Source: Synechococcus sp. WH 8101
GTDB taxonomy: Bacteria; Cyanobacteriota; Cyanobacteriia; PCC-6307; Cyanobiaceae
DNA length: 64,000 nucleotides
Assembly: GCF_004209775.1 (NCBI RefSeq)
Contig: NZ_CP035914.1
Location: 1,922,001 to 1,986,000, forward strand
Direction: 5' to 3'
In this document: positions 1 through 28,601 of the stretch, one piece after another
Layout of the letters: each line of letters opens with the position of its first letter
How positions within the stretch are numbered: the first letter of the stretch is position 1
Notes under the pieces: model-generated
Seen by the model: the letters and a program-made list of their open reading frames with translations, nothing else
Told to the model about the DNA's origin: nothing
Database searches by the model: none
Position numbers and translations under genes: made by a program

Positions 1-290
1 GGTCGCGCACCCGCCATCGCCAGATCGTTGGCGGTGCCGGTCACCGCCAGGCTGCCGATGTCTCCGCCGGGAAACTCCAGGGGCTGCACCACATAGCCAT
101 CGCAGCTGAAGGCCAAAGGAGCGGCAGCAGACGGCAGAACAGCCGCATCGTGGAGAACCACGGCAGCCTCATCGCCTCCTCCCGAACGATCGAGCGCCTG
201 ACCTGGCAACAGCGGCCGTAACTCCTGCTGGATCAGGTCGCGCATCAGGGCGCCACCGCCGCCATGGGCCAAGCGGATGCAGTCCGTCAT
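1..290 (-). CDS. hypE: Hydrogenase maturation protein HypE, N-terminal part (runs off the window edge)
   Basis: About 96 residues of the N-terminus are present; the gene continues past base 1. The translation opens MTDCIRLAHGGGG, the glycine-rich opening typical of HypE, followed by an SCDGYVVQPLEFPGGDIG stretch that fits the PurM-like ATP-binding fold. HypE dehydrates the carbamoyl group received from HypF to give the cyanide ligand of the NiFe site. Its ATG at 288-290 overlaps the hypD stop as ATGA, so it is translationally coupled to hypD. The catalytic C-terminal cysteine lies outside the window and cannot be checked. Confidence 0.9.
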   Translation of the reverse strand, partial: MTDCIRLAHGGGGALMRDLIQQELRPLLPGQALDRSGGGDEAAVVLHDAAVLPSAAAPLAFSCDGYVVQPLEFPGGDIGSLAVTGTANDLAMAGAR

Positions 291-1363
291 CGCCGATAGC
301 GGTGATAGGCCGCACAGGCTCCCTCGCTCGACACCATCGGCGCCCCCAGGGGCCGCTGCGGAGTGCACGCCCCACCAAAGGCCGGGCACTCCGGCGGCAG
401 GGCCAGACCCCGCAAAATGCGGCCGCTGATGCAGAGCCTGGGGTCGGAGTCATCGCCAGCGGCGACGGCAGGCTCCAGGGCTGCGGCATCGAGATGCCGG
501 TAAGCGGGTCGCAGGGCCAGCCCCCCCTGGGGCAGAACTCCCAGGCCACGCCAAGGACGATCCGCAGGTTCAAACACCGCATCGATCAACGCCTGCGCCG
601 CCCGATTGCCCTCCGGCGTCACCACCCGGGCGTAGGCATTGCTGAGACGCGCTTCGCCCGCCTCCAGTTGTCGCACCGCCTCGAGCACGCCCGCCATCAA
701 CTCCGCGGGATCGAAGCCGCTCACCACCACCGGCACCCGATGGCGCTCCACCAGCTGCTCCAGCTGCCGTGTGCCCATCACCGCCGCCACATGACCGGCG
801 GCCAGAAAAGCCTGCACCTCGCTGGCCGGATCGGCAAGGATCGCTTCCATCGCCGGCACGACGCGCACGTGGGCGACCAGCAGCGACAGATTGGGGAGCG
901 CCAGGGCCTTGGCCTGACGCGCCAACAGGGCCGTGGCGGGAGCGGTGGTCTCAAACCCCACCGCCAGAAACACCACGCGGCGATCGGGATGGCGCCGGGC
1001 CAGCGCGATCGCCTGAAGCGGCGAAGTGAGCAGCTGCACATCCCCTCCGGCCGCCCGCACCGCCAATAGATCCTGGCCGGGATCACTTCCCGGCACCCGC
1101 AGCATGTCGCCGTAGGAACAGAGCACCACATCGGGACGCCGCGCCAGCTTGAGGGCGAGATCAATGCAGGCGGCCGGTGTGACACACACCGGGCAACCGG
1201 GACCATGGATCAGACGCACCACTGGTGGCAGCAGCTGATCAAGGCCCCAGCGGAGGATGGCGTGGGTCTGGCCGCCGCAGACCTCCATCAGGGTCCAGGG
1301 GCGACGGGTCAGGGCAGCGAGGGTGTCAGCCAGCTGCGCCGTTTGGGCATGGGCGTGGATCAA
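287..1363 (-). CDS. hypD: Hydrogenase maturation protein HypD
   Basis: 358 residues, usual HypD length. HypD is the scaffold on which the Fe(CN)2CO unit is assembled with HypC and HypE. Visible signatures are MEVCGGQTHAI near residues 27-36, GPGCPVCVT near 54-62, GFETTAPATA in the middle, and a cysteine-rich C-terminus (CISGRIL, PECPAFGGACTPQRPLG, SSEGACAAY) that should bind the 4Fe-4S cluster. It starts 4 bp downstream of the DHOD-like gene stop and overlaps hypE by ATGA, so it belongs to the same transcription unit. Confidence 0.96.
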   Translation of the reverse strand: MIHAHAQTAQLADTLAALTRRPWTLMEVCGGQTHAILRWGLDQLLPPVVRLIHGPGCPVCVTPAACIDLALKLARRPDVVLCSYGDMLRVPGSDPGQDLLAVRAAGGDVQLLTSPLQAIALARRHPDRRVVFLAVGFETTAPATALLARQAKALALPNLSLLVAHVRVVPAMEAILADPASEVQAFLAAGHVAAVMGTRQLEQLVERHRVPVVVSGFDPAELMAGVLEAVRQLEAGEARLSNAYARVVTPEGNRAAQALIDAVFEPADRPWRGLGVLPQGGLALRPAYRHLDAAALEPAVAAGDDSDPRLCISGRILRGLALPPECPAFGGACTPQRPLGAPMVSSEGACAAYHRYRR

Positions 1364-1367
1364 CCGC

Positions 1368-2381
1368 TCACCTCCAACCCGTCAGGCCACTGAGGGCACG
1401 GATGTACTGGGCCCGTTCGTAATCCGCGGGCGTGGCGCAACGCTGCTGACTCATGCAGCCGATCAGATCGGCGACCGCGCCGTAGTCGTGCGCCTCCAAC
1501 CACTGACTGAGTTCCAGCTCGATCGCCTGCAACCGGTCCGGACCGTGGCGCAAGAGGCTGGCCACCAGCTGGGTGCCACTCGCTCCGGCCATTAATAGGC
1601 GCACCACATCGGTGGCGCGCTGCACCCCGCCGCTGGCGGCGAGCTGCAGCGGTTCCCTGCCGTGCAACAAGGCGATCCAGCGCAGGGGCAGATGGAGATC
1701 GTGAGGGGTGGAGAGCAGTGGATTGGCCTGCAGCTCCAGCCGCTCGATGTCGATATCGGGTTGATAAAAACGATTGAACAGCACCAGACCATCGGCGCCG
1801 GCTGCGGCAAGACGATGGGCCAGCCCCCGGAAGTTGGTGAAGAAAGGGCCGAGTTTCACCGCCAGGGGAAGCCTCACCTGCGCCCGCACACCACGCACGA
1901 TCGCTTCAATCTCCGCCTCGATCTCACCGCTGCTCAGCAGGGGGTCGGTGGGGAGGCTGTGAATGTTGAGCTCCAGCGCCTGGGCGCCGGCGCTCTCGAT
2001 CCGGCGCGCCGTCTCCACCCAGCGGCCGGGATGGGTGCCATTGAGACTGGCAATCACCGGGATCGTCAGTTGCTGCCGGGCCCGCTCGATCAGGCGCAGA
2101 TAGAGATCCACCCCCTCATGCACCACGGCACAATCGGGGAGGTAACTGAGGGCCTCGCCGTAGCTATCGCTGCCCAGGGTGGCGTGATCATGGAGCGCGA
2201 GCTGTTCCTGTTCGATCTGCTCCTCAAACAACGAATGCAGCACAATCGCTGCAGCGCCATGACGCTCGAGCTCCAGCATCGGGCCGACATGGTCGCTGAG
2301 GGGCATGGCCGCTCCCACGATCAGGGGCGATCGCAACGGCAGCCCGAGCCAATCGCATCGCAGATCCGGATGGCTGGTCAT
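1368..2381 (-). CDS. Dihydroorotate dehydrogenase-like flavoprotein coupled to PFOR
   Basis: 337 residues with a PyrD-type TIM barrel: substrate and FMN loops resembling class 1 dihydroorotate dehydrogenases (ASLNGTHPGRW near 110-120, ALELNIHSLPTD near 135-146, LAVKLGPFF near 173-181, AASGGVQ near 247-253). Genes of this type are commonly found directly after nifJ in cyanobacteria and anaerobes, but their reaction is not established; the true pyrimidine-pathway role is unlikely here. The start overlaps the nifJ stop by ATGA and the stop is 4 bp before hypD. A redox partner or accessory role for PFOR is inference from this coupling. Confidence 0.85.
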   Translation of the reverse strand: MTSHPDLRCDWLGLPLRSPLIVGAAMPLSDHVGPMLELERHGAAAIVLHSLFEEQIEQEQLALHDHATLGSDSYGEALSYLPDCAVVHEGVDLYLRLIERARQQLTIPVIASLNGTHPGRWVETARRIESAGAQALELNIHSLPTDPLLSSGEIEAEIEAIVRGVRAQVRLPLAVKLGPFFTNFRGLAHRLAAAGADGLVLFNRFYQPDIDIERLELQANPLLSTPHDLHLPLRWIALLHGREPLQLAASGGVQRATDVVRLLMAGASGTQLVASLLRHGPDRLQAIELELSQWLEAHDYGAVADLIGCMSQQRCATPADYERAQYIRALSGLTGWR

Positions 2382-5300
2382 GACGCGCCCTCCTGATGGC
2401 TGGCCGCCAGATTGCGATAGACCGCCCAGCGCCGATCGAGATCCGCCTGGGCCGCTTCCACAAGGGCCCGGGCATGCTCCGGCTGGCTGAAGCGCAGCAT
2501 CCGGAAGCGGTTCTCCTGATCCATCGCCTCCGCCAGGGGGCGCCGGGGACCGGCACTGTCGAGCTGAAGCGGCGTTTCACCGCGGGCCAGCCGCCGGGGG
2601 TCGTAGCGGTACAGGGGCCAGCGACCGCAATCAACTGCGAGCTTCTGATGGCCCATCCCTTCGGCCATGTCGATGCCATGGGCGATGCAATGCGAATAGG
2701 CCAAGATCAACGACGGCCCCGGGTAGCTCTCCGCCTCCAGAAAGGCGCGGATCGTGTGTTCATCCCGGGCCCCCATCGCCACGCTGGCCACGTACACACT
2801 GCCGTAAGTCATCGCCATCAAGCCAAGATCCTTCTTGCCGGCTGGCTTTCCTGCCGCAGCGAATTTGGCGACCGCACCGAGCGGCGTCGCCTTGGAGGCC
2901 TGACCGCCAGTGTTCGAATACACCTCCGTGTCGAGCACCAGCACATTCACGTCGCGGCCGCTGGCGAGCACGTGATCCACGCCGCCGAAGCCGATGTCGT
3001 AAGCCCAGCCGTCGCCTCCCACCAGCCAAATGCTGCGCTTCACGAGGGCATCCGCCAAACCGAGCAGGGCCTCGGCCCGCTGGCGATCGGGGTGGCCCGC
3101 CAGCAGTCGGCGCAGCTCCTCCACCCGCTGCCGCTGCTCGACAATCCCGGCCTCCTCCTCCTGCTCCGCACCGATCAAGTCCTCCACCAGGGCAGGGGGG
3201 AGTGGCGGATCCAGCGCGCGCAGCAGGTCCTCAGCCATCTGCCGCTGCTGATCCACCGCCACCCGCATGCCGAAGCCGAATTCGGCGTTGTCTTCAAACA
3301 GGGAATTGCTCCAGGCGGGTCCGCGTCCGTCTCGATTGGCGCGCCAGGGCGTGGTGGGAAGGTTGCCGCCGTAGATCGAACTGCAACCGGTGGCATTCGC
3401 CACCAACATGCGATCGCCGAACAGCTGGGTGGCGAGCTTCAGGTAAGGGGTCTCACCGCAACCGGCGCAGGCACCGGAAAATTCGAACAGGGGTTCCTGC
3501 AGCTGCTGCTGGCCGATCTTGTGCAGGTTGAGGTCGGCGCGCGGCACCTCGGGGAGATGCAGAAAGAAGTCCCAGTCGGCGCGTGCCTGCTCCCGCAGCG
3601 GTCGCTGCGGTGCCATGTTGATCGCCTTGCGCTTGGGCTCACTGCGATCCCGCGCCGGACAGACGTTGACGCACAGGGCACAGCCGGTGCAGTCTTCGGC
3701 CGCCACCTGGATCGTGAACGTCTGGCCCTGGAAGGCTGGATCGCGAGCGGGGGCGGTGCGAAACCCCTCCGGGGCCTCAGCGAAGGCGGGCCCAGGAGCC
3801 ACCTTGGCGCGGATCACCGCATGGGGGCAGACCATCACGCATTTGCCGCACTGCACGCAGAGGTCGCTTTCCCACACCGGAACCGACTCAGCGATGTTGC
3901 GCTTCTCCCATTGGCTGGTGCCCACCGGCCAGGTGCCATCACAGGGAAGAGCGCTCACCGGCAGCGCATCACCACAGCGCGCCAGCATCGGTGCGATGAC
4001 GTCGCGCACAAACACCGGCGCCTGCTGCAGTCGATCCTCCCCTGCTGCTCCAGAGGTCTCCGGCCCTGCTTGGGTTTCCAGCGGATCCACCAGGTGTGGC
4101 CAGGGCACGGCATGGAGCTGATCCAGGCTGGCGTCCAGGGCGCGCAGATTCATCGCCACCACGGCCTCACCCTTGCGGCCATAGGTCTTGGCGATCGACT
4201 GACGAATGCGCTCGATCGCCTGCTCCCGCGGCAACACCCCACTGATGGCAAAGAACCCGGCCTGCATCACGGTGTTGATCCGCGACCCCATGCCGCTGGC
4301 TCGGGCCACACGACTCGCATCCACCACCCAGAGCTGCAGATGGCGCTCGCGGATGGTGCGGCGCATCGCCCCAGGCAGGTGACTCCAGGTCTCCTCCGGT
4401 GAATAGGGACTGTTGATCAGCACGGTGCCGCCGGGCTGGATGCCGGCCAGCAGATCAAAACGACCGATGAAATCCCACTGATGACAGGCCACGAACGTGG
4501 GGCGCTGAATCAGATAAGTGGAGCGAATCGGCCGCGGCCCGAAGCGCAGATGGGAGACGGTGACGGCTCCCGATTTCTTCGAGTCGTAAACGAAATAGCC
4601 CTGGGCGAAGAGATCAGTGCTTTCGCCGATGATTTTGATGGCGGCCTTGTTGGCTCCGACGGTGCCATCGGAGCCGAGGCCATAAAACACCGCCCGCACT
4701 TCGCCATCATCCCGCGACCCCTCGGTGACGATCGAGGCATCCACCGGCAGAGACGTGTGGCCCACATCGTCTTCGATTCCCACGGTGAAATGGTTGCGGG
4801 CCGGCTCCCCGGCGAGCAGCGCCTGCAGATGGCGATCCACGGCATGCACCATCGCCGGGGTGAACTCCTTCGACGACAGGCCATAGCGCCCGCCCAGCAC
4901 CCGGGGTGGTGCAGCCCCCGGCCACTGCTCACTCAAGGCCGTCACCACGTCGAGATAGAGCGGTTCGCCGCTGGCACCGGGATCCTTGCAGCGATCGAGC
5001 ACGGCGATCGCCCGGGTGGTGGCGGGCAGGCTCTCCACCAGAAGTCGGGCACTGAAGGGGCGGAACAGTCGCACCTTCAACAGCCCCACCCGCTCGCCCG
5101 CGGCCAACAGGGGCTCCAGGCTCTCTTCAGCGGTTTCGCAGCCGGATCCCATCAGCACCAGCACCCGTTCAGCATCGACGGCGCCGCAGTAGTCGAAGGG
5201 TCTGTAACGGCGACCGGTGAGCGCCGCGAACGCGTCCATCGCCTCCTGCACCAGACCTGGTGCGGCCTCAATGAAGGGATTCACGGTCTCCCGCGCCTGG

Positions 5301-5974
5301 AAATAGACATCGGGGTTCTGAGCAGTGCCACGCACCACGGGGTGATCGGGACTCAGGGCCCGGGCGCGATGCGCAGCGATCGCAGCCTGAGGGATCAGCT
5401 GCTGGAGCACCGCATCAGGAATCGCAGCCACCTTCTGGATTTCGTGGGAGGTGCGAAAACCGTCGAAACAGTGCAGGAACGGCAACCGACTGCACAGGCT
5501 GGCGCGGCTGGCGATGGCGGCGAAATCAGCGGCTTCCTGCACAGACGCCGAGGTGAGGATGGCACAGCCACTGCCGCGTGTGGCCATCACATCACTGTGG
5601 TCACCAAAGATCGACAACCCCTGCGCTGCGAGTGAACGGGCGGCCACATGCAGCACCACCGGTGTCAGCTCACCGGCGAGTTTGTAGAGGTTGGGGATCA
5701 TCAACAGCAATCCCTGGCTGGCCGTGAAGGTGGTGGTGAGGGTTCCGGCCTGGAGGGCGCCATGCACCGTGCCGGCCGCACCCGCCTCGCTCTGCAGCTC
5801 CACCACCGACGGCACCGAGCCCCAGAGGTTGGGGCGATCCGCTGCTGCCCAGGCATCGGCCCACTCCCCCATCGGCGACGCCGGCGTGATCGGGTAGATG
5901 GCGATCACCTCATTGAGGCGATAGGCCACGCGGGCAACGGCCTCATTGCCGTCGACGGTGATCATCTCCGTCAT
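2378..5974 (-). CDS. nifJ: Pyruvate:ferredoxin (flavodoxin) oxidoreductase
   Basis: 1198 residues, full length for the single-chain PFOR. It decarboxylates pyruvate with CoA to acetyl-CoA and CO2 and reduces ferredoxin or flavodoxin. N-terminal pyrimidine-type TPP domain (YPITPASPMGEWAD at 27-40), central CoA/gamma domain, two 4Fe-4S motifs (Cys706/709/712/716 and Cys762/765/768/772), then a C-terminal TPP-binding domain with GDGWAYDIGFGG at 987-998 and DTEVYSNTGGQ at 1015-1025. Cys836, Cys839, Cys864 and Cys1096 match the ligands of the third, TPP-proximal cluster. All cofactor residues look intact. It is ATGA-coupled on both sides, to hypC and the DHOD-like gene, an unusual position inside hydrogenase maturation genes. 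Confidence 0.97.
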   Translation of the reverse strand: MTEMITVDGNEAVARVAYRLNEVIAIYPITPASPMGEWADAWAAADRPNLWGSVPSVVELQSEAGAAGTVHGALQAGTLTTTFTASQGLLLMIPNLYKLAGELTPVVLHVAARSLAAQGLSIFGDHSDVMATRGSGCAILTSASVQEAADFAAIASRASLCSRLPFLHCFDGFRTSHEIQKVAAIPDAVLQQLIPQAAIAAHRARALSPDHPVVRGTAQNPDVYFQARETVNPFIEAAPGLVQEAMDAFAALTGRRYRPFDYCGAVDAERVLVLMGSGCETAEESLEPLLAAGERVGLLKVRLFRPFSARLLVESLPATTRAIAVLDRCKDPGASGEPLYLDVVTALSEQWPGAAPPRVLGGRYGLSSKEFTPAMVHAVDRHLQALLAGEPARNHFTVGIEDDVGHTSLPVDASIVTEGSRDDGEVRAVFYGLGSDGTVGANKAAIKIIGESTDLFAQGYFVYDSKKSGAVTVSHLRFGPRPIRSTYLIQRPTFVACHQWDFIGRFDLLAGIQPGGTVLINSPYSPEETWSHLPGAMRRTIRERHLQLWVVDASRVARASGMGSRINTVMQAGFFAISGVLPREQAIERIRQSIAKTYGRKGEAVVAMNLRALDASLDQLHAVPWPHLVDPLETQAGPETSGAAGEDRLQQAPVFVRDVIAPMLARCGDALPVSALPCDGTWPVGTSQWEKRNIAESVPVWESDLCVQCGKCVMVCPHAVIRAKVAPGPAFAEAPEGFRTAPARDPAFQGQTFTIQVAAEDCTGCALCVNVCPARDRSEPKRKAINMAPQRPLREQARADWDFFLHLPEVPRADLNLHKIGQQQLQEPLFEFSGACAGCGETPYLKLATQLFGDRMLVANATGCSSIYGGNLPTTPWRANRDGRGPAWSNSLFEDNAEFGFGMRVAVDQQRQMAEDLLRALDPPLPPALVEDLIGAEQEEEAGIVEQRQRVEELRRLLAGHPDRQRAEALLGLADALVKRSIWLVGGDGWAYDIGFGGVDHVLASGRDVNVLVLDTEVYSNTGGQASKATPLGAVAKFAAAGKPAGKKDLGLMAMTYGSVYVASVAMGARDEHTIRAFLEAESYPGPSLILAYSHCIAHGIDMAEGMGHQKLAVDCGRWPLYRYDPRRLARGETPLQLDSAGPRRPLAEAMDQENRFRMLRFSQPEHARALVEAAQADLDRRWAVYRNLAASHQEGAS

Positions 5975-6165
5975 GGCGCGTGCTCCGTCACAAGACTGAG
6001 GGCGATCCCCACATGCACCAGCACCCGATCGCCCACCATCGCCTCGGGCAGGCAGGCCAGGCTCACCTGTTGATGCACGCCACCGAAGTCGACCTCGGCC
6101 ATCCGGAACAGGGGGTCCGCCGTCTCCTCAATCGTGCGGATCACTCCGGGGGTGGCCAGGCACAT
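5971..6165 (-). CDS. hypC: Hydrogenase maturation chaperone HypC
   Basis: 64 residues starting MCLATPG; Cys2, exposed after Met removal, is the residue that binds the Fe(CN)2CO unit and contacts HypD. The remainder is the small OB-fold with DFGGVHQQVSLACLPEA and VGDRVLVHVG, standard for HypC/HupF. The longer reading frame upstream lies inside hypF, so the internal ATG at 6163-6165 is the start. It overlaps the hypF end by 25 bp and the nifJ start by ATGA. Confidence 0.95.
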   Translation of the reverse strand: MCLATPGVIRTIEETADPLFRMAEVDFGGVHQQVSLACLPEAMVGDRVLVHVGIALSLVTEHAP

Positions 6166-8588
6166 GGCGCATGGATCTCGCCTGTTCTCGGTATAGCCAT
6201 GCTCTGGCGAGCGGCCCAGAGCTGCCCCAGGGCCAGGCCTCCATCGTTGCAGGGGAGCTGTTCCGGCCAGAACACCTCCAGGGAGGCCGCCCGCAACAGG
6301 GTGATGCAGCGCTGCAACAACCACCTGTTCTGAAAACAGCCCCCACTCAGGGCCACCTGGCGGCAGCGGTGACGCCGTGCCGTGGTCACGAGCGTGGCGG
6401 CCAGCCCCACCGCGATGGCCTCATGGCAAGCGGCCGCCAGGGCGGCAGGCGTATCCCCTCTCCCACCCGGGTCAGCGGCAAGCACAGCGAGCACTCCATC
6501 CAGCAGCGGCTGCCAGTCGAGCCAACCAGCCGCCTGATCCCAGCGCAAGGGAGCCAGTGCCAGCGGCGCTTCGATGCCATCATCCGCATCGCCGTGGCGG
6601 TGGGCCAGCGCCTCCAGCCGCATGGCCGCTTCCCCTTCATGGCTCTGGAGCTCCACTGCCGCCACCAGGGCGGCAAGACCATCAAACAGACGGCCGAGGG
6701 AACTGCAGAGCGGCGACTGCACACTTCGATCCAGAGCCTGCTCGATCAGCTTGAGATCGGCTGGAGCAAAGCGCTGCCGTAACGCGGAAGCGCCTGGATG
6801 CGCCGACTGCTGGGCTTCAGAAAGAAGCCCGAGGGCGCAGCGGCGTGCATCGCGCACAGCCAGCTCGGAGCCGGGGAGGGGAAAAGAGCGCAGGCTGAAC
6901 AGCCGTTGCGGTGGAGCGTTGCCCTCCATCAGGAACAACTCGCAGCCGCGGCCATGGGGTGGTGTGGCGCTGTAGCCCAAGCCATCGGCGGCCCATGCCA
7001 ACACCGGACCGGCCAGACCATGCTCCGCCACCACCGCCAGGGCGTGGGCGGGATGGTGCTCCACCCGGTAGAGCGGCAAGTGCTGGCGCTCGCTGAGTTC
7101 TACAGCCAACTGCGCACTCACATAGCCGGGATGGGCATCGCAGACCACCGCCTCCAGATCGCCGGCGCAACGTGTTGTGATCTCCTTCAGGCCCTGCTGC
7201 AGATCGCTCTGTTGGTCGGCGTCGGCCAGATCACCGCGGAAGGGCGCCGGCCAGACCGCTCCCCGATGGGCCAGCACGGGCGCCGACTTGAGATCGCCGC
7301 CCAGCGCGAGCAGACACTGATCCGGCGCGAGGCCGACAGGAAGATCCAGGGGGGCCGGCGCGTAACCCCGGGCACGGCGCAGCAGCATCGGTCGTCCATC
7401 CACCAGCCGCAGCAGGGAATCATCCAACCGCCGGGCGATCGGTCGGTCGTGAATCAGAAAGGCATCAGCAAGGTTGCCGAGCCGTTCGCGGGCTTCGTCG
7501 GGATCGCGGCACTGGGGTTCACCACTGCGGTTGCCACTGGTGGCCACCAGCGGGGCGGCAATGGCCTGGGCCAACAGATGATGCAGGGGAGAAGCCGGCA
7601 GCATCACCCCCAGCCAGGGGCTGCCTGGCGCCACCGGATCGGCGCCGTCGGCCTCCATCGACGGAGGGATCCGTCGCCGTTTGAGCAACACGATCGGCGC
7701 CGCAGGGCCGCTGAGCTCCCGACGCTCCTCTGCATGGCAATGCACCTGATCGTCAAGCCGATCGATGCGATCCACCAGCAGGGCGAACGGCTTGTGGGGC
7801 CGATGCTTACGCAAGCGGAGCCGCCGGACGGCCGCAGCGTTGCCGGCCTCCACCAGCAGCTGAAAACCGCCCACCCCCTGCAGTGCCAGGATCTTCCCCT
7901 GCTGCAGGATCGCGATCGCTGCAGCCAACGGCTCCTGCCCGGAGCCATGCCGACCAGCAGCACAGAGATCCTCACCAGCGGCGTCCACCAGCTGCAGCCT
8001 CGGTCCACAGGCTGGACAACTGATCGTTTCGGCATGGAAGCGCCGCTGTCCTGGGGTTTCGAACTCGTGCCGGCAGGCCTCGCAGAGGGGAAAACAACCC
8101 ATCGTCGTGTGGGCCCTGGCAAAGGGCTCCGCCACAGCGATCGAGTAGCGGGGACCACAGCGACTGCAACTGATGAAGGGATAGCGATGGCGGCGATCAG
8201 CGGGATCAGCCAGTTCCGCCAGGCAGTCGGCACAGGGGGCAAGATCCGGCACCAGGGCCGGAGCGATCAGGCCCTGACCGAGTGGCAGTGGAGCGCTGGC
8301 GGCGATGCTCAACTGCCGTGGTGGCGCTGGCGACGGCGGCAACCAGACTGGATCCAGGCCATCGAGACGGGCAGGAGGCCGCAGGCGCTGGGGCAGCAGC
8401 TCCAGCAGACGCTGCAGCTGCCGACGCGACCCATGCAGATCCAGGCACACCGCTCCAGCCTGGTTGTCCAGTCGACCGGTGAGATCAAGCTCCCGAGCCA
8501 ACTGATGCACCTGGGGGCGAAACCCCACCCCCTGCACCAGGCCGCGGCAGAGCAGCCGCAGGCGCACCCGGGACTCCGCCGTGCTCAA
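6141..8588 (-). CDS. hypF: Carbamoyltransferase HypF
   Basis: 815 residues, near the usual 750-820. HypF turns carbamoyl phosphate and ATP into a thiocarbamate on the HypE C-terminal cysteine. Domain order: acylphosphatase (RGLVQGVGFRP at 15-25), two zinc fingers (Cys119/122/141/144 and Cys169/172/191/194), a YrdC/Sua5 fold around 205-390 and a Kae1-like carbamoyltransferase to the end (EHHPAHALAV, WAADGLGY and LSGGCFQNR motifs). The start overlaps hypB by ATGA; the last 25 bp overlap hypC. Confidence 0.97.
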   Translation of the reverse strand: MSTAESRVRLRLLCRGLVQGVGFRPQVHQLARELDLTGRLDNQAGAVCLDLHGSRRQLQRLLELLPQRLRPPARLDGLDPVWLPPSPAPPRQLSIAASAPLPLGQGLIAPALVPDLAPCADCLAELADPADRRHRYPFISCSRCGPRYSIAVAEPFARAHTTMGCFPLCEACRHEFETPGQRRFHAETISCPACGPRLQLVDAAGEDLCAAGRHGSGQEPLAAAIAILQQGKILALQGVGGFQLLVEAGNAAAVRRLRLRKHRPHKPFALLVDRIDRLDDQVHCHAEERRELSGPAAPIVLLKRRRIPPSMEADGADPVAPGSPWLGVMLPASPLHHLLAQAIAAPLVATSGNRSGEPQCRDPDEARERLGNLADAFLIHDRPIARRLDDSLLRLVDGRPMLLRRARGYAPAPLDLPVGLAPDQCLLALGGDLKSAPVLAHRGAVWPAPFRGDLADADQQSDLQQGLKEITTRCAGDLEAVVCDAHPGYVSAQLAVELSERQHLPLYRVEHHPAHALAVVAEHGLAGPVLAWAADGLGYSATPPHGRGCELFLMEGNAPPQRLFSLRSFPLPGSELAVRDARRCALGLLSEAQQSAHPGASALRQRFAPADLKLIEQALDRSVQSPLCSSLGRLFDGLAALVAAVELQSHEGEAAMRLEALAHRHGDADDGIEAPLALAPLRWDQAAGWLDWQPLLDGVLAVLAADPGGRGDTPAALAAACHEAIAVGLAATLVTTARRHRCRQVALSGGCFQNRWLLQRCITLLRAASLEVFWPEQLPCNDGGLALGQLWAARQSMAIPRTGEIHAPCAWPPPE

Positions 8589-9301
8589 CGGGGCTGCAGC
8601 GCTCCCAACCGCAGCTGCTGCATCAGGGCATCCATGCCGGCGCCAGTTCTGGCTGACACCTCGAGCACCGTCGCATCCGGAGCCACCTGGGCGATGTGCT
8701 GCAGGGCGAGCGACCGGTTGAATCCCACCGCTGCCGCCAGATCGCTTTTGCTGATCACCACCAGATTGGCGCTGTAAAAGGTGGCTGGGTATTTCAAGGG
8801 CTTGTCCTCACCCTCGGTAACCGACAGAAGAACGATGCGCTGGGTCTCGCCCAGGTCGTAGGCGGTGGGGCAGACCAGATTGCCCACGTTTTCAATCACC
8901 AGCAGCTGGAGCTCCGGCAGGGGAAGCGCATCCACAGCAGCGCCGAGCATCGCGGCCTCCAGATGACAGGCCTGTCCTGTGGTGATCTGAATCGCCTGCA
9001 CACCGGAGCGTTGCAGGCGACGGGCATCGTGGTCGGTGGCGAGATCGCCGACGATGACCGCCATGGCCGCGGGATCGCAACGGCTGGCCAGGGCTTCAAG
9101 CAGGCTGGTCTTGCCCGATCCCGGCGACGACAGCAGGTTCACCACATGAACGCCGGCCTGCTCGAAGCGTTGGCGCAGCAACGCAGCACCAGCGTCGTTC
9201 TGGGCGAGCAATGCGGTGTGCAGATGCAGCATCCGCTGGTGTTGATGCTGATGCTGGGGAGCCTGCAGGGAGGTGAGACTGCAGCCGCAATCAGTGCACA
9301 T
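8585..9301 (-). CDS. hypB: Hydrogenase nickel incorporation GTPase HypB
   Basis: 238 residues. HypB is the SIMIBI-class GTPase that, with HypA, delivers nickel to the large subunit. It has an N-terminal CTDCGC nickel motif at 2-7, a short HQHQHQ stretch at 17-22 that may add metal binding, a P-loop (SSPGSGKTS, 58-66), and the G-domain metal residues Cys112-His113 and Cys144. The start is the ATG at 9299-9301. The 65 bp separating it from hypA is the only sizeable gap in the cluster, so an internal promoter there is possible but none is clearly visible. Confidence 0.96.
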   Translation of the reverse strand: MCTDCGCSLTSLQAPQHQHQHQRMLHLHTALLAQNDAGAALLRQRFEQAGVHVVNLLSSPGSGKTSLLEALASRCDPAAMAVIVGDLATDHDARRLQRSGVQAIQITTGQACHLEAAMLGAAVDALPLPELQLLVIENVGNLVCPTAYDLGETQRIVLLSVTEGEDKPLKYPATFYSANLVVISKSDLAAAVGFNRSLALQHIAQVAPDATVLEVSARTGAGMDALMQQLRLGALQPR

Positions 9302-9705: not shown

Positions 9706-10214
9706 AACGCTGTTGCCTCCAGCCATTGCCGCACGAGCCGGCGCGCTGCCGGCAACTGCAACTCCATCGCCGCCGACAACCGGGTGCCATGGGCGATCTC
9801 TGTGGCGGGGATCCGGAGCATCGCCGCTTCCGGTTCGGCATGCCACAGCGATCGCGCCAGGGCCAGAAGCTGCGCAGCCGTCAGGTGATGGCTGTTCAAG
9901 ACCGACTCGCCGCAGGCCACAGGGCGAGACACCGATACGAGCAGACGCTGCAACACCGGTGCCGCGGGCGCCGCAGGCGACAGCCAGGCATCGATGAACA
10001 GCACCCGATCCACGCCGGCCAGATCGGCCACAAGTTCCGGCGTCAATTGGTGGACGCTGCGCACCCTGAGGGCAGCATCAACAGCCTTGTCATCCACAAC
10101 AGCCTCCCATTCCTCCGCCAACAGCCGCCCCACCCCGTCATCGCCCCGCAGCGGATTGCCGATACCGATCAGAAGGTTCCGGGCCACCCCGGTGGCCATC
10201 GCTGCATCAAGCAT
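9693..10214 (-). CDS. hoxW: Hox hydrogenase maturation endopeptidase HoxW
   Basis: About 173 residues if started at the ATG at 10212-10214, which has a GGGGGA ribosome-binding site 9 nt upstream; an ATG at 10197-10199 would give 168. The opening LLIGIGNPLRGDDGVG is the HycI/HupD-type protease signature, including the first metal-sensing Asp; an FIDAWLSP strand and an SHHLTA motif follow. The enzyme trims the C-terminal extension of HoxH after nickel insertion. It lies 14 bp after hoxH, as expected for the dedicated protease. Confidence 0.92.
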   Translation of the reverse strand: MLDAAMATGVARNLLIGIGNPLRGDDGVGRLLAEEWEAVVDDKAVDAALRVRSVHQLTPELVADLAGVDRVLFIDAWLSPAAPAAPVLQRLLVSVSRPVACGESVLNSHHLTAAQLLALARSLWHAEPEAAMLRIPATEIAHGTRLSAAMELQLPAARRLVRQWLEATALCMS

Positions 10215-10228
10215 CCATCGACATCCCC

Positions 10229-11686
10229 CTACCGCGCTCGCTCCGCCAACACGGTGCCCCGGTGATCCAGCACTTGCAGATGCAGCGGCATCTGCCCAGC
10301 GGCATGGGTACTGCAACTGAGGCAGGGGTCGTAGCAACGGATGCCGGCCTCCACCCGGTTCAGCAACGCCTCGGGAATCGTGGCGTCCGCGGGAACGGGC
10401 TGAGGGATGAACTCCCGGGCGATCTGGGCCACGGTGCGGTTCATGGCCAGATTGTTCTGGCCCGTGGCGATGATCAGATTCACGGCGGTGATCAGACCGT
10501 TGTCGTCCACGCGGTAGTGGTGGAACAGGGTGCCCCGGGGCGCTTCACTGACGCCGATCGCTTCATTGGCGTTGAGCTGGGCCCGGGCCCGGATCCGCCC
10601 CGACAGCAGGCTGTCATCGGCGACCAGCTGTTCCATCCCCTCCAGACAGGCCACGATCTCCACCAGACGCGCCTGGTGATACGCGAACGATGAGGTGACG
10701 ATCCGACCGCCACTGGCGGCGGTGCCGTTACGGGAGCGGAACGCCTCCAGTTCGCGATCGGCCCAGGGGGTGCCGATCCGCTCGCAGACGTTCAGGCGGG
10801 CCAGGGGGCCCACCCGATAGAGGCCCTGGGGATAACCCAGGGGCCGGTAATAGGGGAATTTCAGATAACTCCAGCTCTCCACCGCTTCGCCCACCACGGC
10901 GGCGTAGTCCTCTTCCCGCACGCCATCGGCCACCACCGTGCCGTCACTGTCGATGAAGCGAAGCCGTCCCTCGATGCACTCCCAGCCGCCGTCGTCTGCA
11001 ACCAGAGCCATGAACAGGGAGGGGAAGTCGCCGAAGCTGCGCTGCTCCCGCTCCAGCGGTCCATCCAGCAGACGATTGAGCAGATCAAGAGCCAGGCGCA
11101 CCGTCTGCTTTGCCTCCGGCAGGTTGGCCAGGATCCAGTCGCGCGCCTCCGGCGACAGCGCACTGCGCACTCCACCGGGTACGGCCCAGGCGCTGTGAAT
11201 CTTGCGCCCACCGAGCAGCTCCAGCACCTGCTGTCCGAACTGACGCAAACGGATCCCCGCACGGGCCAGGTCGGGATCGGCGGCCATCAGACCGAACACA
11301 TTGCGGCGATCGGGGTCGCTCTCCCAGCCGAGCAGGAAATCAGGGCTGCTCAGGTGAAAAAACGAAAGCGCGTGGCTCTGGCAGATCTGCGCCAGGTTCA
11401 GCAAGCGCCGCAGTTTCCGAGCTGCCGGCGGGGGCTGCACCGCCAGCAGCTTGTCGCCGGTCTTGGCGGCGGCAAGCAGATGACTGACCGGACAGATGCC
11501 GCAGATTCGGGCGGTGATGCCCGCCATCTCCGTGAAGGGGCGGCCTTCGCAGAAGGTCTCGAAGCCCCGGTATTCCACGACGTGAAAGCGGGCATCGGCG
11601 AGCTGGCCCTCGTCATCGAGATGGAGGGTGATCTTGGCGTGACCCTCAATCCGGGTCACCGGGTCGATCGTGATCGTGCGCATCAT
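10229..11686 (-). CDS. hoxH: Bidirectional NiFe hydrogenase large subunit HoxH
   Basis: 485 residues from the ATG at 11684-11686, which overlaps the hoxY stop as ATGA. HoxH carries the NiFe active site. The N-terminal L1 motif [10 protein letters not shown] supplies Cys62 and Cys65; the C-terminal L2 motif DPCLSCSTH supplies Cys455 and Cys458. About 24 residues follow His461 and should be cleaved by HoxW. All four nickel cysteines are present, so the enzyme looks catalytically intact. Confidence 0.97.
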
Positions 11687-12291
11687 CCGAAACGGGGTGG
11701 CTGGGGCGGGATGGGCTCGGCCCGGTCCTGGACCACCGATGGCGACCCATCGCCTTGCAACAACGGAGCGATCGCCTCCCGGATGCGCGTCGCCGACGGT
11801 GGGCAACCCGGCAGCCACACGTCCACGGCAATCACCTCATGCAATGGCAGCACCCGCTCCAGCAGCTCCGGCACGATTCCAGGCGCTTTTGGGAGCATTC
11901 CGGTCGCATCCGCCAGTTCCAGATAGCCCCGCTGCAACACAGCGGCACGGCTTCCACCCTCCTGCCGCTCCTGCCAGAGATTGCGCAGGGCGGGCACATT
12001 CCCGGTCACGGCGCAATCGCCGAACGACACCACGCAGCGGCTGCGGGCTCGTAGCTTCAGGGCCAGCTCCAGGTTGTCGGTGTTGGCCACCGCTCCTTCC
12101 ACCAGGCAGACATCCACCTGCTCGGGGAAGTCCTTGCGGTCGTTGGCGACCGGCGAGTAGACGACGTCGGCCAGAGCGGCGAGCTCAAACAACCACTCGT
12201 CGAGATCGAGGAAAGACATGTGGCACCCGCTGCATCCCGCTAACCAGACGGTGGCGAGACGGCAACGATCCGTGGGCGGGCTGGTGGTCAT
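11683..12291 (-). CDS. hoxY: Bidirectional hydrogenase small subunit HoxY
   Basis: 202 residues, a short small subunit with only the proximal 4Fe-4S cluster, as in the NAD(P)-linked group 3d. The four ligands are visible: WLAGCSGCH (Cys20, Cys23), GDCAVTGN (Cys93) and PGCPPS (Cys163). It pairs with HoxH to form the hydrogenase moiety. It is ATGA-coupled to hoxU upstream and hoxH downstream. Confidence 0.97.
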
Positions 12292-13022
12292 GACAGGGGG
12301 TCTCCGGTGGGATGCCAGCGATGCTGCTCGCGGGCCTGTCGCAACAGCAGCGGGCGCTCACGGTGGGGATGTTTTTCCGCCGTCGTGTCGTCCTTGCGGA
12401 CGATGGCGCCGGTGGGGCACACATCCACGCACTTGCCGCAGGAGGTGCAGGCGCTGACCTCGCCCCAGGGCTGATCGAGTCCGGCGATGATGCGGCACTG
12501 TTCGCCTCGGTCGGCCACATCCCACACGTGGGCGCCTTCGATCTCGTCGCAGACGCGCACGCAGCGGGTGCAGAGAATGCAACGGTGATGGTCGATGCTG
12601 AACTGGGAGTGGGAGCTGTCGACGCAACGATCGGGGTAGCGGTAGGGAAAGCGGGAGTGATCCATGCCCACCTCGCTGGCCACATCCTGAAGTTCACAGG
12701 CGCCATTGGCGACGCAGAAGGCACACACGTGGTTGCCTTCTGCAAAGAACAGCTCCACTGCCATCCGGCGGTAGGTCTGCAGGCGTGGCGTGGCGGTGAG
12801 AATCGCCAGGCCCTCCACGGCTTCGGTGGCGCAGGCGGGCAGTAGGCGTTGGCTATCGACCTGCTCCACCAGGCACAGGCGGCAGGCACCCACAGGCGTC
12901 AGGCCATCCAGATGGCAGAGCGTGGGCACGCGACTGCCAGCGGAGCGGATCGCCTCCAGCAACGTGGCACCGGCTGGCACCGCCACCTCGACGCCATCAA
13001 CGCTCAGGGTGAGAACGCTCAT
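12288..13022 (-). CDS. hoxU: Bidirectional hydrogenase diaphorase subunit HoxU
   Basis: 244 residues, NuoG-like N-terminal domains only. Ligands in order: 2Fe-2S (Cys36, Cys47, Cys50, Cys64), the His98/Cys100/Cys103/Cys109 4Fe-4S site, and two CxxCxxCxxxC clusters (Cys148-158 and Cys192-202). HoxU relays electrons between HoxF and HoxYH. It has ATGA overlaps with hoxF and hoxY. Confidence 0.97.
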
Positions 13023-14641
13023 CGGCCTAGCTCAGGAGTATCCAGGCACTGGGAGGGCTGGCGGCAGGCGGCCTGATACTCCTGACGGAAGTAGCGCAGC
13101 GTGCTGAGCACCGGATTCGGGGCGGCCTGACCGAGACCGCAGAGGCTCATCGCCTGCACCATCCCGCAGAGCTCTTCCAGTCGTGCCAGATCGGCGAGGT
13201 CGGCGCGACGTTCGACGAAGCGATCGAGCAAAGCGGCCAACTGCACCGTGCCGGCGCGACAGGGAATGCATTTGCCGCAACTCTCGTTGCAGCTGAACCG
13301 CATGAAATGGCGTGCCACCTCTGGCATCGAGGTGGTTTCACCCATCACCACCATGCCCCCGGACCCCATCATCGACCCCAGGGCCCTGAGGCTTTCGTAG
13401 TCGACCGGCGTATCGAGCAGATGGGCAGGGATGCACCCCCCCGAGGGGCCGCCGGTCTGCACAGCCTTGACGCCCCCGTTGGGTCCATCGGCGCCTGGAA
13501 CGCCACCTCCCATGGTCTGAACCACGGTGCGCAGACTCGTGCCCATCGGCACTTCCACCAGACCGGTGCGCTCCACAGCCCCGGAAAGGGCAAACACCTT
13601 GGTTCCCTTGCTGCCCTCAGTGCCGATCGCAGCGAACCAGTCGCCGCCTTCGCGCAGGATCGTCGGCACGGCCGCGAAGGTCTCCACGTTGTTGATCAGC
13701 GTTGGCGCGCCGGCCAGACCGGACTGGGCCGGGAACGGAGGCCGGGGGCGCGGCGTGCCGCGCCGTCCTTCGATGGAGGCCATCAAAGCGGTCTCCTCAC
13801 CGCAGACATAGGCACCGGCGCCGACTCGCACCTCGAGCTGCAAGCGAAAGCCGCTGCCGGCGATCGCAGGCCCCAGCCAGTGCTGGCTGCGGGCCTGACG
13901 CAGGGCCAGGCGGAGGCGATCAATCGCCAGCGGGTATTCAGCACGCACGTAGATGAAGCCGTGATCAGCGCCAACGGCGTAGGCGGCGATCGCCATGCCC
14001 TCGATCAGGCGATGGGGGTCACTCTCGAGCACGCTGCGGTCCATGAAGGCGCCGGGATCACCCTCATCGGCGTTGCACACCAGGGCCCGCGGGCCGGGCG
14101 GTTGCAGGGCCACCGTGTCCCACTTCAGACCGGTGGGGTAACCGGCTCCACCCCGACCGCGCAGACCGCTGCGCTTCACCTCCTCCCGCACCTCCGCAGG
14201 CGTCATCTCCGTCAACACGCGCTGCAGCTGGCTGTAGGCACCGTGGGCCACGGCATCGTCGATCGATTCCGGATCGATGCGACCACAGGAGGCCAGCACC
14301 ACCGACTGCTGCAACGCAAAGAAGGGATGGTCGAGATCGAGGCGTTGCCCCCGCAAGGACGAACCCTCCTGGTGCGGGAGATCCGCGGCCAGACGCAGCA
14401 GATCCGCGGCCTGCTCCGGGCGTAGACCGGCATACACGGCGGAGGGGCGATCGTCTATCGGATCAAGGGCCACCAGCGGACCACGCCCGCACAGACGCAG
14501 GCAGCCCACCGATTTGATCTCGACAGCTTCCGCAGTGCCACCGAGCTGATCGCGGGCCTGAAGCAAGGCCTGCTGAACGGCAGCGGCACCTGCCGAGCGA
14601 CAGCCACTGGCACTGCAACAACGCAACTGAGTGGCCGTCAT
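13019..14641 (-). CDS. hoxF: Bidirectional hydrogenase diaphorase subunit HoxF
   Basis: 540 residues. An N-terminal thioredoxin-like 2Fe-2S domain (Cys9, Cys14, Cys47, Cys51) is fused to a NuoF-type flavoprotein. GRGGAGYPTG at 162-171 and YVCGEETAL at 278-286 form the NAD(P)/FMN site; Cys455, Cys458, Cys461 and Cys501 bind the 4Fe-4S cluster. It exchanges electrons with NAD(P)H, and ferredoxin or flavodoxin have also been proposed as partners in cyanobacteria. ATGA-coupled to hoxE and hoxU. Confidence 0.97.
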   Translation of the reverse strand: MTATQLRCCSASGCRSAGAAAVQQALLQARDQLGGTAEAVEIKSVGCLRLCGRGPLVALDPIDDRPSAVYAGLRPEQAADLLRLAADLPHQEGSSLRGQRLDLDHPFFALQQSVVLASCGRIDPESIDDAVAHGAYSQLQRVLTEMTPAEVREEVKRSGLRGRGGAGYPTGLKWDTVALQPPGPRALVCNADEGDPGAFMDRSVLESDPHRLIEGMAIAAYAVGADHGFIYVRAEYPLAIDRLRLALRQARSQHWLGPAIAGSGFRLQLEVRVGAGAYVCGEETALMASIEGRRGTPRPRPPFPAQSGLAGAPTLINNVETFAAVPTILREGGDWFAAIGTEGSKGTKVFALSGAVERTGLVEVPMGTSLRTVVQTMGGGVPGADGPNGGVKAVQTGGPSGGCIPAHLLDTPVDYESLRALGSMMGSGGMVVMGETTSMPEVARHFMRFSCNESCGKCIPCRAGTVQLAALLDRFVERRADLADLARLEELCGMVQAMSLCGLGQAAPNPVLSTLRYFRQEYQAACRQPSQCLDTPELGR

Positions 14642-15126
14642 GGCGCTTCTCCCAGACCGAGCTGCTGCAGGCGCTGATCCAGGCCTGCAGGATCATCCAG
14701 CGGCAGCTTCGGCTCCAGCGCACCATCCACCACCAGCACCGGCGCCTGGCCGCAAGCTCCGAGACAACTGACGTGTTCCAGCGCCCACTCGCCATTGCCG
14801 GCCGGATCATCCAGACGCACACCCAGACGGCGTTCCAGGAGGCTGGCCAACTCCGCCCCGCCTTTGACGAAACAGGCGGTTCCGAGGCAGATGGCGCAGC
14901 GATGGGCCGTGGGGGCCTTCAGACGGAACAGGTGATAGAAACTGGCAACCCCCATCACGGTGGCGTGGGGCAAGTGCAACTCCTGCGCCACCTGATCCAG
15001 CGCCGAACGCGGCAGGTAGCCATGCATCTCCTGCACCTGATGCAGCACCTCGATCAGGGCATCAGCCCGCCCCCGATGCTGGCGGATCAGGCGGGAGGTG
15101 CGGGTTGTTGCGGATCCTTCCACCAT
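14638..15126 (-). CDS. hoxE: Bidirectional hydrogenase subunit HoxE
   Basis: 162 residues, NuoE-like thioredoxin-fold 2Fe-2S protein: Cys80 and Cys85 in CLGTACF and Cys121 and Cys125 in CLGACG. It is the first gene of the supercluster. Its ATG at 15124-15126 is preceded by GGGAG about 8 nt away. It reads divergently from the deacetylase-family gene, leaving about 56-65 bp for both promoters. HoxE is the subunit that marks the five-subunit cyanobacterial form of the enzyme. Confidence 0.96.
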   Translation of the reverse strand: MVEGSATTRTSRLIRQHRGRADALIEVLHQVQEMHGYLPRSALDQVAQELHLPHATVMGVASFYHLFRLKAPTAHRCAICLGTACFVKGGAELASLLERRLGVRLDDPAGNGEWALEHVSCLGACGQAPVLVVDGALEPKLPLDDPAGLDQRLQQLGLGEAP

Positions 15127-15182: not shown

Positions 15183-16136
15183 TTGTCAGTGATGAGGGCA
15201 GCTTCGCCGGATCAGGCCCGGGTGGGATTGGTCTTTGATCACAGGCTGCAGGGACACGACACGGGCCCGGGCCATCCGGAGCAGCCGGAACGGGTGCGTG
15301 TTGTGGAGCAGGCCCTGCGGCAACGGGGCCTGCTGCAGCGCTGCCGGCGAATCGACGCCCGACCGATCACCGATGCGGAACTGCTGCGCTGCCACAGCCA
15401 GCGCTATCTCAACACCGTGCGCCGCGATGTGGCCTATGGCCGCGGCCAGCTCTCCACCGGCGATACCGCCATCGGTGACGACAGCGAGGATGTGGCGCGC
15501 CTGGCTGCCGGTGGCACCCTGGCGGCGGTGGATGCGGTGCTGCAGGGTGCGGTGGATCGGGTCTTCGCCCTGGTGCGACCTCCCGGACATCATGCCGAGG
15601 CGAATCGGGGCATGGGCTTCTGCCTGTTCAACAACATCGCCCTGGCGGCCCGCCATGCCCAGGCCGCTCATGGCGTCGAGCGGCTGCTGATCCTCGACTG
15701 GGATGTGCATCACGGCAATGGCACCGAAGCGATCCTCGGCGCCGATCCATCCGTGCTGCTGGTGGGCGTCCATGAACGAGGCAACTATCCCGGCAGCGGC
15801 GAGAGCAGCACCGCATCGTCGATCAACATCCCCTTGCCGAGCGGGAGTGACGGCCCGCCCCTGCTCCAGGCTCTCGAACACACCCTCGTCCCGGCTGCTG
15901 CCCGCTTTCAACCGCAACTGGTGTTCATCTCGGCGGGATTCGATGGCCATGCCGACGATCCACTGGCTGGGTTCCAGCTGCAAGCGGCCGACTACGGCGC
16001 CCTCACCCAACTGGCCCTGGCCGTAGCCCGAGACCACGCCGACGGCCGCTTGGTGTCAGCGCTGGAAGGGGGTTACAACCTGCCGGCGTTGGCCAGCAGC
16101 TGCTGCGCTCACGTGGAAGCCTTGCTCAAGGCCTGA
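15183..16136 (+). CDS. Class II histone-deacetylase-superfamily amidohydrolase (AcuC/acetylpolyamine amidohydrolase type)
   Basis: Up to 317 residues; the start may be TTG 15183, GTG 15189 or ATG 15192. Zinc-hydrolase signatures are complete: RPPGHHAE with the His136-His137 dyad, [11 protein letters not shown] with Asp174 and His176 as metal ligands, AGFDGH with Asp254, and EGGYN with Tyr298. Family members remove acetyl groups from lysines or polyamines; the substrate here is unknown. It diverges from hoxE and its last 28 bp overlap, tail to tail, an acyl-CoA synthetase/acetyltransferase, which suggests a paired acetylation function (inference). Confidence 0.9.
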
Positions 16137-18934
16137 TCGGTGGGATGATCGCGGGTCCAGCGGCGCAGATCAACCCTGGCCTCCACCACGTCGCCGGCGT
16201 CACGGAGGCTGAAACCGAGCTTTCGGCAGATCTGCCGCATGCCGTGATTCTCCGGAAGAACCTCGGCCAGCACATGATCAATGCCCTCCTGGCGCCCGAT
16301 GTGAAGAAGCTGGAATAACAGCGATGTGCCAAGCCCACGCCGCTGGTGGGAGTCGCGCACCAACAGGGAGAACTCAGCATCGTTGCAGCCGTGGAGTCGA
16401 CTCAGTCGGGCCACCGCCAGCACCTGCCGTTCCTCCTGCCCGCCCCTGCCGTCGACCATGGCGGGATGCTCGGCCACCAGGGCCATCTCCCGGTCGTAAT
16501 CGGTGCAGCAGATACGCACCAGACGCTCATGGGCGGTGCGATGCCGCAGCGACATCTGGTGGAAATAGCGCAGATGCACGCTGTCGCCCGACAACTGACC
16601 GTGAAAGGCCACCAACAACGCCTCATCCTCCGGACGGATCGGGCGGATCAACACCTCGGTGCCATCGGAAAGTTCCATCCGACGGATGTAGTTGGTGGGG
16701 TAGGGGCGAATGGCAGGCCTGGGCAGATGGCAGCTGGCCCCGGCGCCCGGCTGCAGCACGATGCGGGCATCCAGAGCCACCAGGGGACGCACCGGATCCC
16801 CCGGCAGCACCAGCAGGGGGTTGATGTCGACCTCACGGATCGATGGCTGCTCGAGCACCAGCTGACTGAGGCGTACCAGCAGCTGCTCAATGGCAGCCTG
16901 ATCAGCGGGCGGGCCGCCACGCACACCGGCCAGGGCCGCAAACACTCGCGTCTGTTCCATCAGACGCCGCGCCAGGGTGGTGTTCAGGGGCGGCAGGGCA
17001 ACGGCGCTGTCGCGTTGCACCTCCACCAGCGTGCCGCCGCTCCCGAAGAGGATCACCGGGCCGAACTGGGGGTCAAGGCTGCTGCCCACGATCAGTTCCA
17101 AAGCCCCATGGCTCGGCAGCATGGCTTGCACGCTGACGCCAGCGAAGGCCTCCGGGCCGCACCGCTCCGGGATCGTGCACGCCATCGTCTCCCAGGCATG
17201 GCGGACCGCCTCCGGCCCGCCTAAATCCAACCAGACGCCGCCCACATCGCTTTTGTGGGTGATCCGTTCGCTGTGGAGCTTGAGCACCACCGGATAGCCG
17301 ATGGTCGCCGACGCGTCCAGGGCTTCTTCAAGGCTCTTGGCCAAGCGAGTTTCCAACACAGGGATGCCGTGGCTGGCGAGCACCTGTTTGGCCTCTACTT
17401 CGCTCAACAGCTCCCGGCCCTGGCGTCGCGCCTGCTCCAACACCGCCACACCGCGGCTGCGGCCACCATCGTGATGGGCCGGATCGCGCTCGTCCTCCGG
17501 CAGCAGGCTCGGCGTCTCATACACCCCCCGCAGGTTGTAAGTGTGTTGCCAGAGCGTGGTGAACAAGCGAGCGGCGGCGTCCGGGTAGTCGTTGGTGGCG
17601 ATCCCGGCCTCATTGAGCAACTCCACCGCTCCGGTGACGTCGGCGCCTCCCATCCAGCTCGCCACCAGGGGCTTGCGGCTGCCAGCGGCAAGCTGGCGCA
17701 GACGCTCGGCCGTGGCGAGCGGATCGGTCATCGCCTGTGGAGTGAGGATCACCAGCAGGCCGTCGCTGCCGGGATCGGCAAGGGCGATCTCTACAGCGCG
17801 GGCATAGCGCTCCGGATCGGCATCGCCAAGGATGTCGATCGGATTGGCATGGCTCCACTGCGGCGGCAACACCTGATCAAGCGCTGCGATCGTGTCGCCC
17901 TGAAGGGAGGCCAGGGTGCCACCACTGAGCACCAGCGCATCGGTGGCCAGCACGCCTGGACCGCCGGCGTTGGTAACGATCGTGAGCCGTGGCCCCTGGG
18001 GGCGAAGCGGTTGCTTGCCGAGCACATCCGCAAGCTCGAACAGATCGGAGAGCTGGTTGACCCGAAGCACACCGCAACGGCGGAGTGCGGCATCGAGAAC
18101 CTGATCGCTGCCCGCCAGGGCACCGGTGTGGGAAGCGGCCGCCCGGGCCGCCTCGCTGCTGCGCCCGCCCTTGATCAACACGATCGGCTTGGTGAGAGCC
18201 ACCTCCCTGGCTGCGGAGAGAAAGGCGCGAGCATCACCGATCGCCTCCATGTAGATCACGATGCTGTGGGTCTCCGGGTCATCGCCCAGATGGGTGATCA
18301 GATCGCCCCAGTCCACATCGAGCATGGACCCCATCGACACAAAGGCGCTGAACCCGACCTTTTCACGCCGACTCCAATCGAGAACGGCCGTGCAGATCGC
18401 TCCGGACTGGCTGAGAAAACCCACATGACCTGGCTCCGCGATCGTCGAGGCAAAGGTGGCGTTCAAGCCGAGGCGGGGGTTCATCAGGCCCAGGCAGTTG
18501 GGACCGAGCACTCGCATCCCCGTGCCGCGCACCAGATCCATCACCCGAGCTTCGCGGGCCAGCCCCTCCGCTCCCACCTCGCGGAAACCAGCGGAGATGA
18601 TGATCACGGCCTTGACGCCGGCGGCGACGCATTCAGCGATGCGATCGGGGACTCCCGGCGCCGGGGTGGCGATCACCGCCAGGTCGATCGGTTCAGGCAC
18701 TTCAGCCAGCGCGCTGCAGCAACGCACTCCCAACACGCTGTGCCGCCGTGGGTTAATCGGGTAAACCGTGCCGCCGAAGGGCGAGCGGATCAGATTCCAG
18801 AACAGAGTGCGTCCGACGCTGCCAGGCCGTTCACTGGCTCCAACAACGGCGACGCAACCGGGCTCAAACAAAGCCCGCAGGGGCATCGAGCCGCTGCGCA
18901 GGATGTCGGCCGTGGGGTCAAAAAGCCTGGGCAC
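16109..18934 (-). CDS. ADP-forming acyl-CoA synthetase / GNAT acetyltransferase fusion (Pat-like)
   Basis: 941 residues from a GTG start; an ATG at 18884-18886 is an alternative. Domain order: CoA-binding Rossmann domain ([14 protein letters not shown], 28-41), succinyl-CoA-ligase-like flavodoxin domains, ATP-grasp domain (about 500-725) and a C-terminal GNAT domain (about 752-925, with RRGLGT at 866-871 and Glu854 on the preceding strand). Pat/PatZ lysine acetyltransferases share this layout, but their synthetase part is reported inactive because the catalytic His is lost. Here His269 in [11 protein letters not shown] and His560 in THKSDVGGV are both kept. It could therefore make ATP from acetyl-CoA, acetylate proteins, or both. 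Confidence 0.88.
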
Positions 18935-28505: not shown

Positions 28506-28601
28506 CCAATGGCGCCCAAGCGCGATGACCCCATTTAGGCATGCACGCACTCAAGCCCACGACCTGCCAAGATTGGTCAAGAAATGCAACGCATTGTTGA
28601 C

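Follow-up and report, generated by a model that had tools for sequence, protein, structure and literature searches.

A histidine-keeping fusion of an ADP-forming acyl-CoA synthetase and a GNAT domain beside hydrogenase and pyruvate:ferredoxin oxidoreductase genes in Synechococcus sp. WH 8101

The 64-kb window of the Synechococcus sp. WH 8101 genome analysed here contains an open reading frame with a GTG start (16109..18934, minus strand) that encodes a 941-aa fusion of an ADP-forming acyl-CoA synthetase (ACD) with a GNAT acetyltransferase domain. Convergent with this gene, and overlapping it by 28 bp, is a plus-strand gene for an HDAC-superfamily deacetylase (15183..16136; PF00850, E 6e-87) in which the catalytic motifs are present. 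Next to these lies a minus-strand block encoding the bidirectional Hox hydrogenase, with HoxE (14638..15126), HoxF (13019..14641), HoxU (12288..13022; NF005745 above cut-off), HoxY (11683..12291; PF01058) and the NiFe hydrogenase large subunit HoxH (10229..11818), followed by HypB (8585..9301), HypF (6141..8588), a single-chain PFOR of 1198 aa (2378..5974), an adjoining dihydroorotate-dehydrogenase-like (DHOD-like) protein (1368..2381) and HypD (287..1363). The original prediction had noted a PFOR cluster nearby, and this block does include PFOR, separated from the fusion by about 10 kb that take in the Hox genes; the deacetylase and hydrogenase genes beside the fusion were absent from that account. 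Between HoxH and HypB there is also a protein without a Pfam match (9693-10337, minus strand), which is 48% identical in the related picocyanobacterial genome G358, and elsewhere in the window a protein with two GNAT domains (Acetyltransf_1, Acetyltransf_18) is encoded at 27615-28550 on the minus strand.

The domains of the fusion are well delimited, with Pfam matches above cut-off to CoA_binding_2 (residues 28-152), Succ_CoA_lig (168-305) and Ligase_CoA_2 (318-450) making up an alpha-type ACD part (17540..18880, minus strand; residues 19-465), a further above-cut-off match to ATP-grasp_5 (16754..17434, minus strand; residues 501-727), and the GNAT domain at the C-terminal end (16160..16678, minus strand; residues 753-925, Pfam match 761-908). 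In alignments with Nmar_0206, a structurally solved ACD whose two phosphorylated histidines are H256 and H535 (PMC11494057), the mobile-loop phosphohistidine position H269 (codon 18128..18130, minus strand) pairs with H256, and the second phosphohistidine position, H560 (codon 17255..17257, minus strand), pairs with H535. In the alpha chain of Korarchaeum ACD1, position 254 corresponds to H269 and position 213 to E230 (codon 18245..18247, minus strand). The earlier suggestion that His269 and His560 occupy the phosphorylated positions of active ACD enzymes is therefore borne out, for both residues against Nmar_0206 and for H269 against ACD1, and H269 does not fall off the catalytic position. 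The GNAT domain, described originally as intact-looking, has the equivalent of the PatZ glutamate E809 (E854) and a QRRGLG motif (Q864-R-R-G867-L-G869) that fits the acetyl-CoA P-loop.

Predicted structure points the same way. An AlphaFold2 model built from 47 aligned sequences reached a pLDDT of 85.9 and a pTM of 0.85, with less confidence in the H269 loop (pLDDT 53 for block 261-270 and 71 for block 271-280), as is expected of a mobile loop. Its top Foldseek matches were PatZ (9it0, 9isq), 8wzu, DddX and ACD1, and VIA-align superposed the model on 2csu (Z 44.3, rmsd 2.2, 430 aligned), on Nmar_0206 (8wzu; Z 44.1, rmsd 2.3, 609 aligned), on ACD1 (Z 42.8-43.7; 42.9 for 4xyl) and on PatZ (Z 39.4). 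Taken separately, the ATP-grasp domain matched 1wr2 (Z 29.8) and the GNAT domain that of Streptomyces lividans Pat (4u5y; Z 24.1, rmsd 1.4).

The fusion thus resembles several known systems without coinciding with any of them. With PatZ of Escherichia coli and Salmonella enterica (Pat, YfiQ), a class I-alpha type I lysine acetyltransferase (KAT; class defined in PMC6456759), it shares the full-length domain order, about 37% identity and the E809 equivalent; in contrast to the fusion, PatZ has a gap at the H269 loop and has lost 31 of 98 ACD core residues (defined below), although it keeps the second histidine. With the archaeal enzymes ACD1 (4xyl) and Nmar_0206 (8wzu) it shares both phosphohistidines, E230 and the ATP-grasp core at Z scores of 43-44, but neither of these has a GNAT domain, and ACD1 is split into two subunits. 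S. lividans Pat, a type II KAT, resembles it in GNAT fold but carries that domain N-terminally, and its synthetase domain is described as without the catalytic histidine (PMC8556138).

To ask how complete the synthetase half is, we defined a core of 98 positions whose conservation in the family is 97% or higher and which are also common to ACD1 and Nmar_0206, both of which score 98 by construction. The fusion retains 97 of these (61/61 in the alpha part and 36/37 in ATP-grasp), the sole change being Y522H, as compared with 67 in PatZ, 91 in G358 and 75 in the Cyanobium MAG L213, a clade mate of the fusion in our tree; the losses in these last three partly coincide (S268, E512, V550, V637, R672). 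Fusions occur in 193 of the 388 genomes sampled from the host's class, the best named match being that of Vulcanococcus limneticus (67%). This match, together with the place of L213 in the tree, indicates a picocyanobacterial host of the Cyanobium/Vulcanococcus/Synechococcus kind. Among 198 homologues of about 44-71% identity, drawn from cyanobacteria, Chloroflexi, Acidobacteria and Verrucomicrobia, H269 and E230 are present in all and H560 in 197, the exceptions at H560 being L213, which has a deletion across the region, and G358, counted apart, which has H560P. Near-invariant positions in these homologues number 179 in the ACD part and 16 in the GNAT domain. Nearly all the non-PatZ homologues keep both histidines, so that what the original prediction had presented as an oddity is the normal state of the group, and it is PatZ that is the exception. 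A divergent pair of fusions (L144 and L145, from genomes G266 and G271; 44% identity, 79/98 core) also has both histidines; one of the two genomes has a phosphotransacetylase (Pta) and the other does not, and a different substrate is possible. The synthetase half of the WH 8101 fusion is probably a working enzyme.

The host genome is a single contig of 2.63 Mb with 100% completeness, and in it we found neither Pta (PF01515) nor PduL (PF06130); PduL as a hidden replacement for Pta was rejected, as it is absent in seven genomes. There is one AMP-forming acetyl-CoA synthetase (Acs), with a PKTRSGK motif, and one acetate kinase (AckA), which lies beside glycogen phosphorylase and phosphoketolase (Xfp) and so can serve Xfp-derived acetyl-phosphate; it seems to work for the phosphoketolase. 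The proposal of a route independent of Pta and AckA consequently stands as regards Pta and is qualified as regards AckA, which is present but adjoins Xfp. This row of Xfp, glycogen phosphorylase and AckA (G000:C1:167389-171234 and L007) lies in a genome without Pta. Two candidates were set aside: an AAA_26-DRTGG orphan at 57297-58391 (minus strand) is 26% identical to the N-terminus of the G358 Pta and was considered as a truncated Pta, but no Pta C-terminal sequence was found in the 64-kb window, and slr0453 was wrongly taken for a Synechocystis fusion, the papers found being concerned with phosphoketolase. The orphan resembles the N-terminal part of long Pta proteins without their catalytic domain and is easily misnamed phosphotransacetylase.

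Across cyanobacteria, erosion of the synthetase core goes with the presence of Pta. Among 110 cyanobacterial genomes, cores of 95/98 or fewer occur in 5 of 18 with Pta versus 1 of 92 without it (Fisher p=0.0004), a threshold set after the data had been seen and a count drawn from related, phylogenetically non-independent genomes; a rank test gave p=0.007. The eroded cores are spread over four lineages by our own grouping, and 13 of the 18 genomes with Pta retain the core. Over the wider sample of 388 genomes, mutual exclusion of fusion and Pta was not seen (22 have both, p=0.75). The GNAT domain is kept intact in most of the eroded fusions, with 16/16 of its near-invariant residues in G358, G362, G317 and G135, and 14/16 in the pair G266/G271. 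Within the fusion's own clade, G358 is the only member of the family found with Pta in the class sample and the only one in which H560 is replaced, and a genome search found Pta in L213 as well; H560 is kept, and Pta lacking, in Vulcanococcus (L165), G302, G311 and G119. As sister fusions (support 1.0), G358 and L213 represent one lineage rather than two cases, and contamination as the source of their Pta is unlikely, as the two loci share synteny and 81% identity. That residues for making ATP tend to be lost while the GNAT domain is kept in relatives with Pta suggests that the supposedly dead half is alive in this group.

The neighbourhood of the fusion recurs beyond WH 8101. The order fusion, deacetylase, Hox, Hyp, PFOR, DHOD-like protein and HypD is collinear in G358 at 48-85% identity, and the deacetylase adjoins the fusion in four picocyanobacteria (WH 8101, L165, L213 and G358). 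More widely, at least 87 cyanobacterial genomes have both the fusion and hoxF, and in 15 of these the two are no more than 10 kb apart; by our estimate, random placement would give about 0.4 such genomes (a 20-kb target in some 4.5 Mb). Nine cyanobacterial genomes have PFOR no further than 20 kb from the fusion, and in L217, L221, L231 and L237, three of which are titled Verrucomicrobia, PFOR is the next gene after the fusion, in the same orientation. The fusion, HoxF and PFOR are all missing from eight congeneric genomes, and in several relatives PFOR and Hox are present but the fusion is not. PFOR and Hox are a recognized dark-fermentation pair in cyanobacteria (PMC3858816). Two further associations may be recorded: the DHOD-like gene is joined to PFOR here and, across phyla, in L217, L221 and L237, which makes it a recurrent PFOR partner, and a different HDAC-like gene (36% identical; L033 428-1435, plus strand) lies directly upstream of another cyanobacterial fusion, possibly an independent pairing of acetyltransferase with deacetylase.

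We favour, with moderate confidence and from sequence comparison, the view that the fusion is a bifunctional enzyme in which a working ADP-forming acyl-CoA synthetase is linked to a GNAT acetyltransferase. The first 730 or so residues would convert acyl-CoA (most likely acetyl-CoA from PFOR) and phosphate to acyl-phosphate, which would phosphorylate H269 on the mobile loop; this loop would then swing to the ATP-grasp domain and hand the phosphate to H560, from which it would pass to ADP, the net products being acid, CoA and ATP. Under dark anoxic conditions PFOR would yield acetyl-CoA and reduced ferredoxin from pyruvate, the electrons would leave as H2 or NAD(P)H via Hox, and the fusion would turn acetyl-CoA into acetate and ATP in a genome without Pta. 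The GNAT domain would act as a linked regulator and the deacetylase as its opponent, with Acs blocked during acetate production and a futile cycle thereby prevented. An active ACD downstream of PFOR, regulated by its GNAT domain and opposed by the deacetylase, is to us the most economical account. A fuller version is decidedly more tentative: that one polypeptide both makes ATP from acetyl-CoA and stops re-activation of acetate by acetylating Acs, with the deacetylase resetting the system, and that class I-alpha KATs were ancestrally bifunctional, PatZ and the Pta-bearing cyanobacterial lineages having suffered independent decay of the synthetase.

Other readings were weighed against this one. 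It is conceivable, if unlikely, that the GNAT domain acetylates a small molecule and is no protein acetyltransferase; the few near-invariant positions in this domain relative to the ACD part would fit such a role, but its best fold match is the S. lividans Pat GNAT with its Acs substrate domain (4u5y), a deacetylase gene adjoins the fusion, and the genome encodes an Acs with the PKTRSGK motif. Slightly less probable is that an active ACD runs towards acid activation (acid + ATP + CoA to acyl-CoA + ADP + Pi) or uses a substrate other than acetate. ACDs can run in either direction, the substrates of relatives include 4-hydroxybutyrate, 3-hydroxypropionate or DMSP, and the fusion scores 515.2 bits against the acetate-specific equivalog TIGR02717 (acetate--CoA ligase alpha), below its curated cut-off of 567.15, and may thus act on something other than acetate; an AMP-forming Acs is, however, already available for acetate, and the repeated association with PFOR and Hox agrees with a role in making acetate. 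Least probable of the three is a PatZ-like sensor whose synthetase half merely binds acetyl-CoA and controls the GNAT domain, its histidines persisting for structural reasons: the domain is reviewed as inactive and regulatory in type I KATs (PMC8556138) and the best full-length Foldseek match is PatZ 9it0, but PatZ has lost the H269 loop along with 31 core residues where the fusion has lost one, the ATP-grasp catalytic residues are near invariant though unneeded for sensing acetyl-CoA, and in sister fusions it is the catalytic residues that erode while the GNAT domain stays.

The energetic idea itself is not new, as acetate formation by bacterial ACDs has precedents. In the sections available to us, an ACD is reported to form acetate in Chloroflexus (PMC11187502), and a putative ADP-forming enzyme next to PFOR is reported to replace Pta and Ack in the luo operons of Desulfovibrio (PMC4481167); the route proposed here resembles both as a one-step bacterial path to acetate and ATP, and the same sections mention no GNAT fusion in either. 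What is new is a putative class I-alpha KAT that keeps its histidines, together with evidence for catalytic constraint on its synthetase half. We found no assay of a histidine-keeping ACD-GNAT fusion in the open-licence literature, and the parts of a 2025 review of cyanobacterial acetylation available to us (PMC12224894) do not mention such a candidate pair of KAT and deacetylase.

Type I KATs have been described as carrying a catalytically dead synthetase domain (PMC8556138), and this view of the domain as a dead sensor rests on PatZ and SePat; yet nearly all of some 200 homologues from several phyla have an intact catalytic core. The locus also names, for cyanobacteria, a candidate lysine acetyltransferase with an adjoining deacetylase. 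If the synthetase half is active, many cyanobacteria that lack Pta would have an unrecognized means of making acetate and ATP when fermenting in the dark, and it would be physically joined to a regulator reading the same metabolite.
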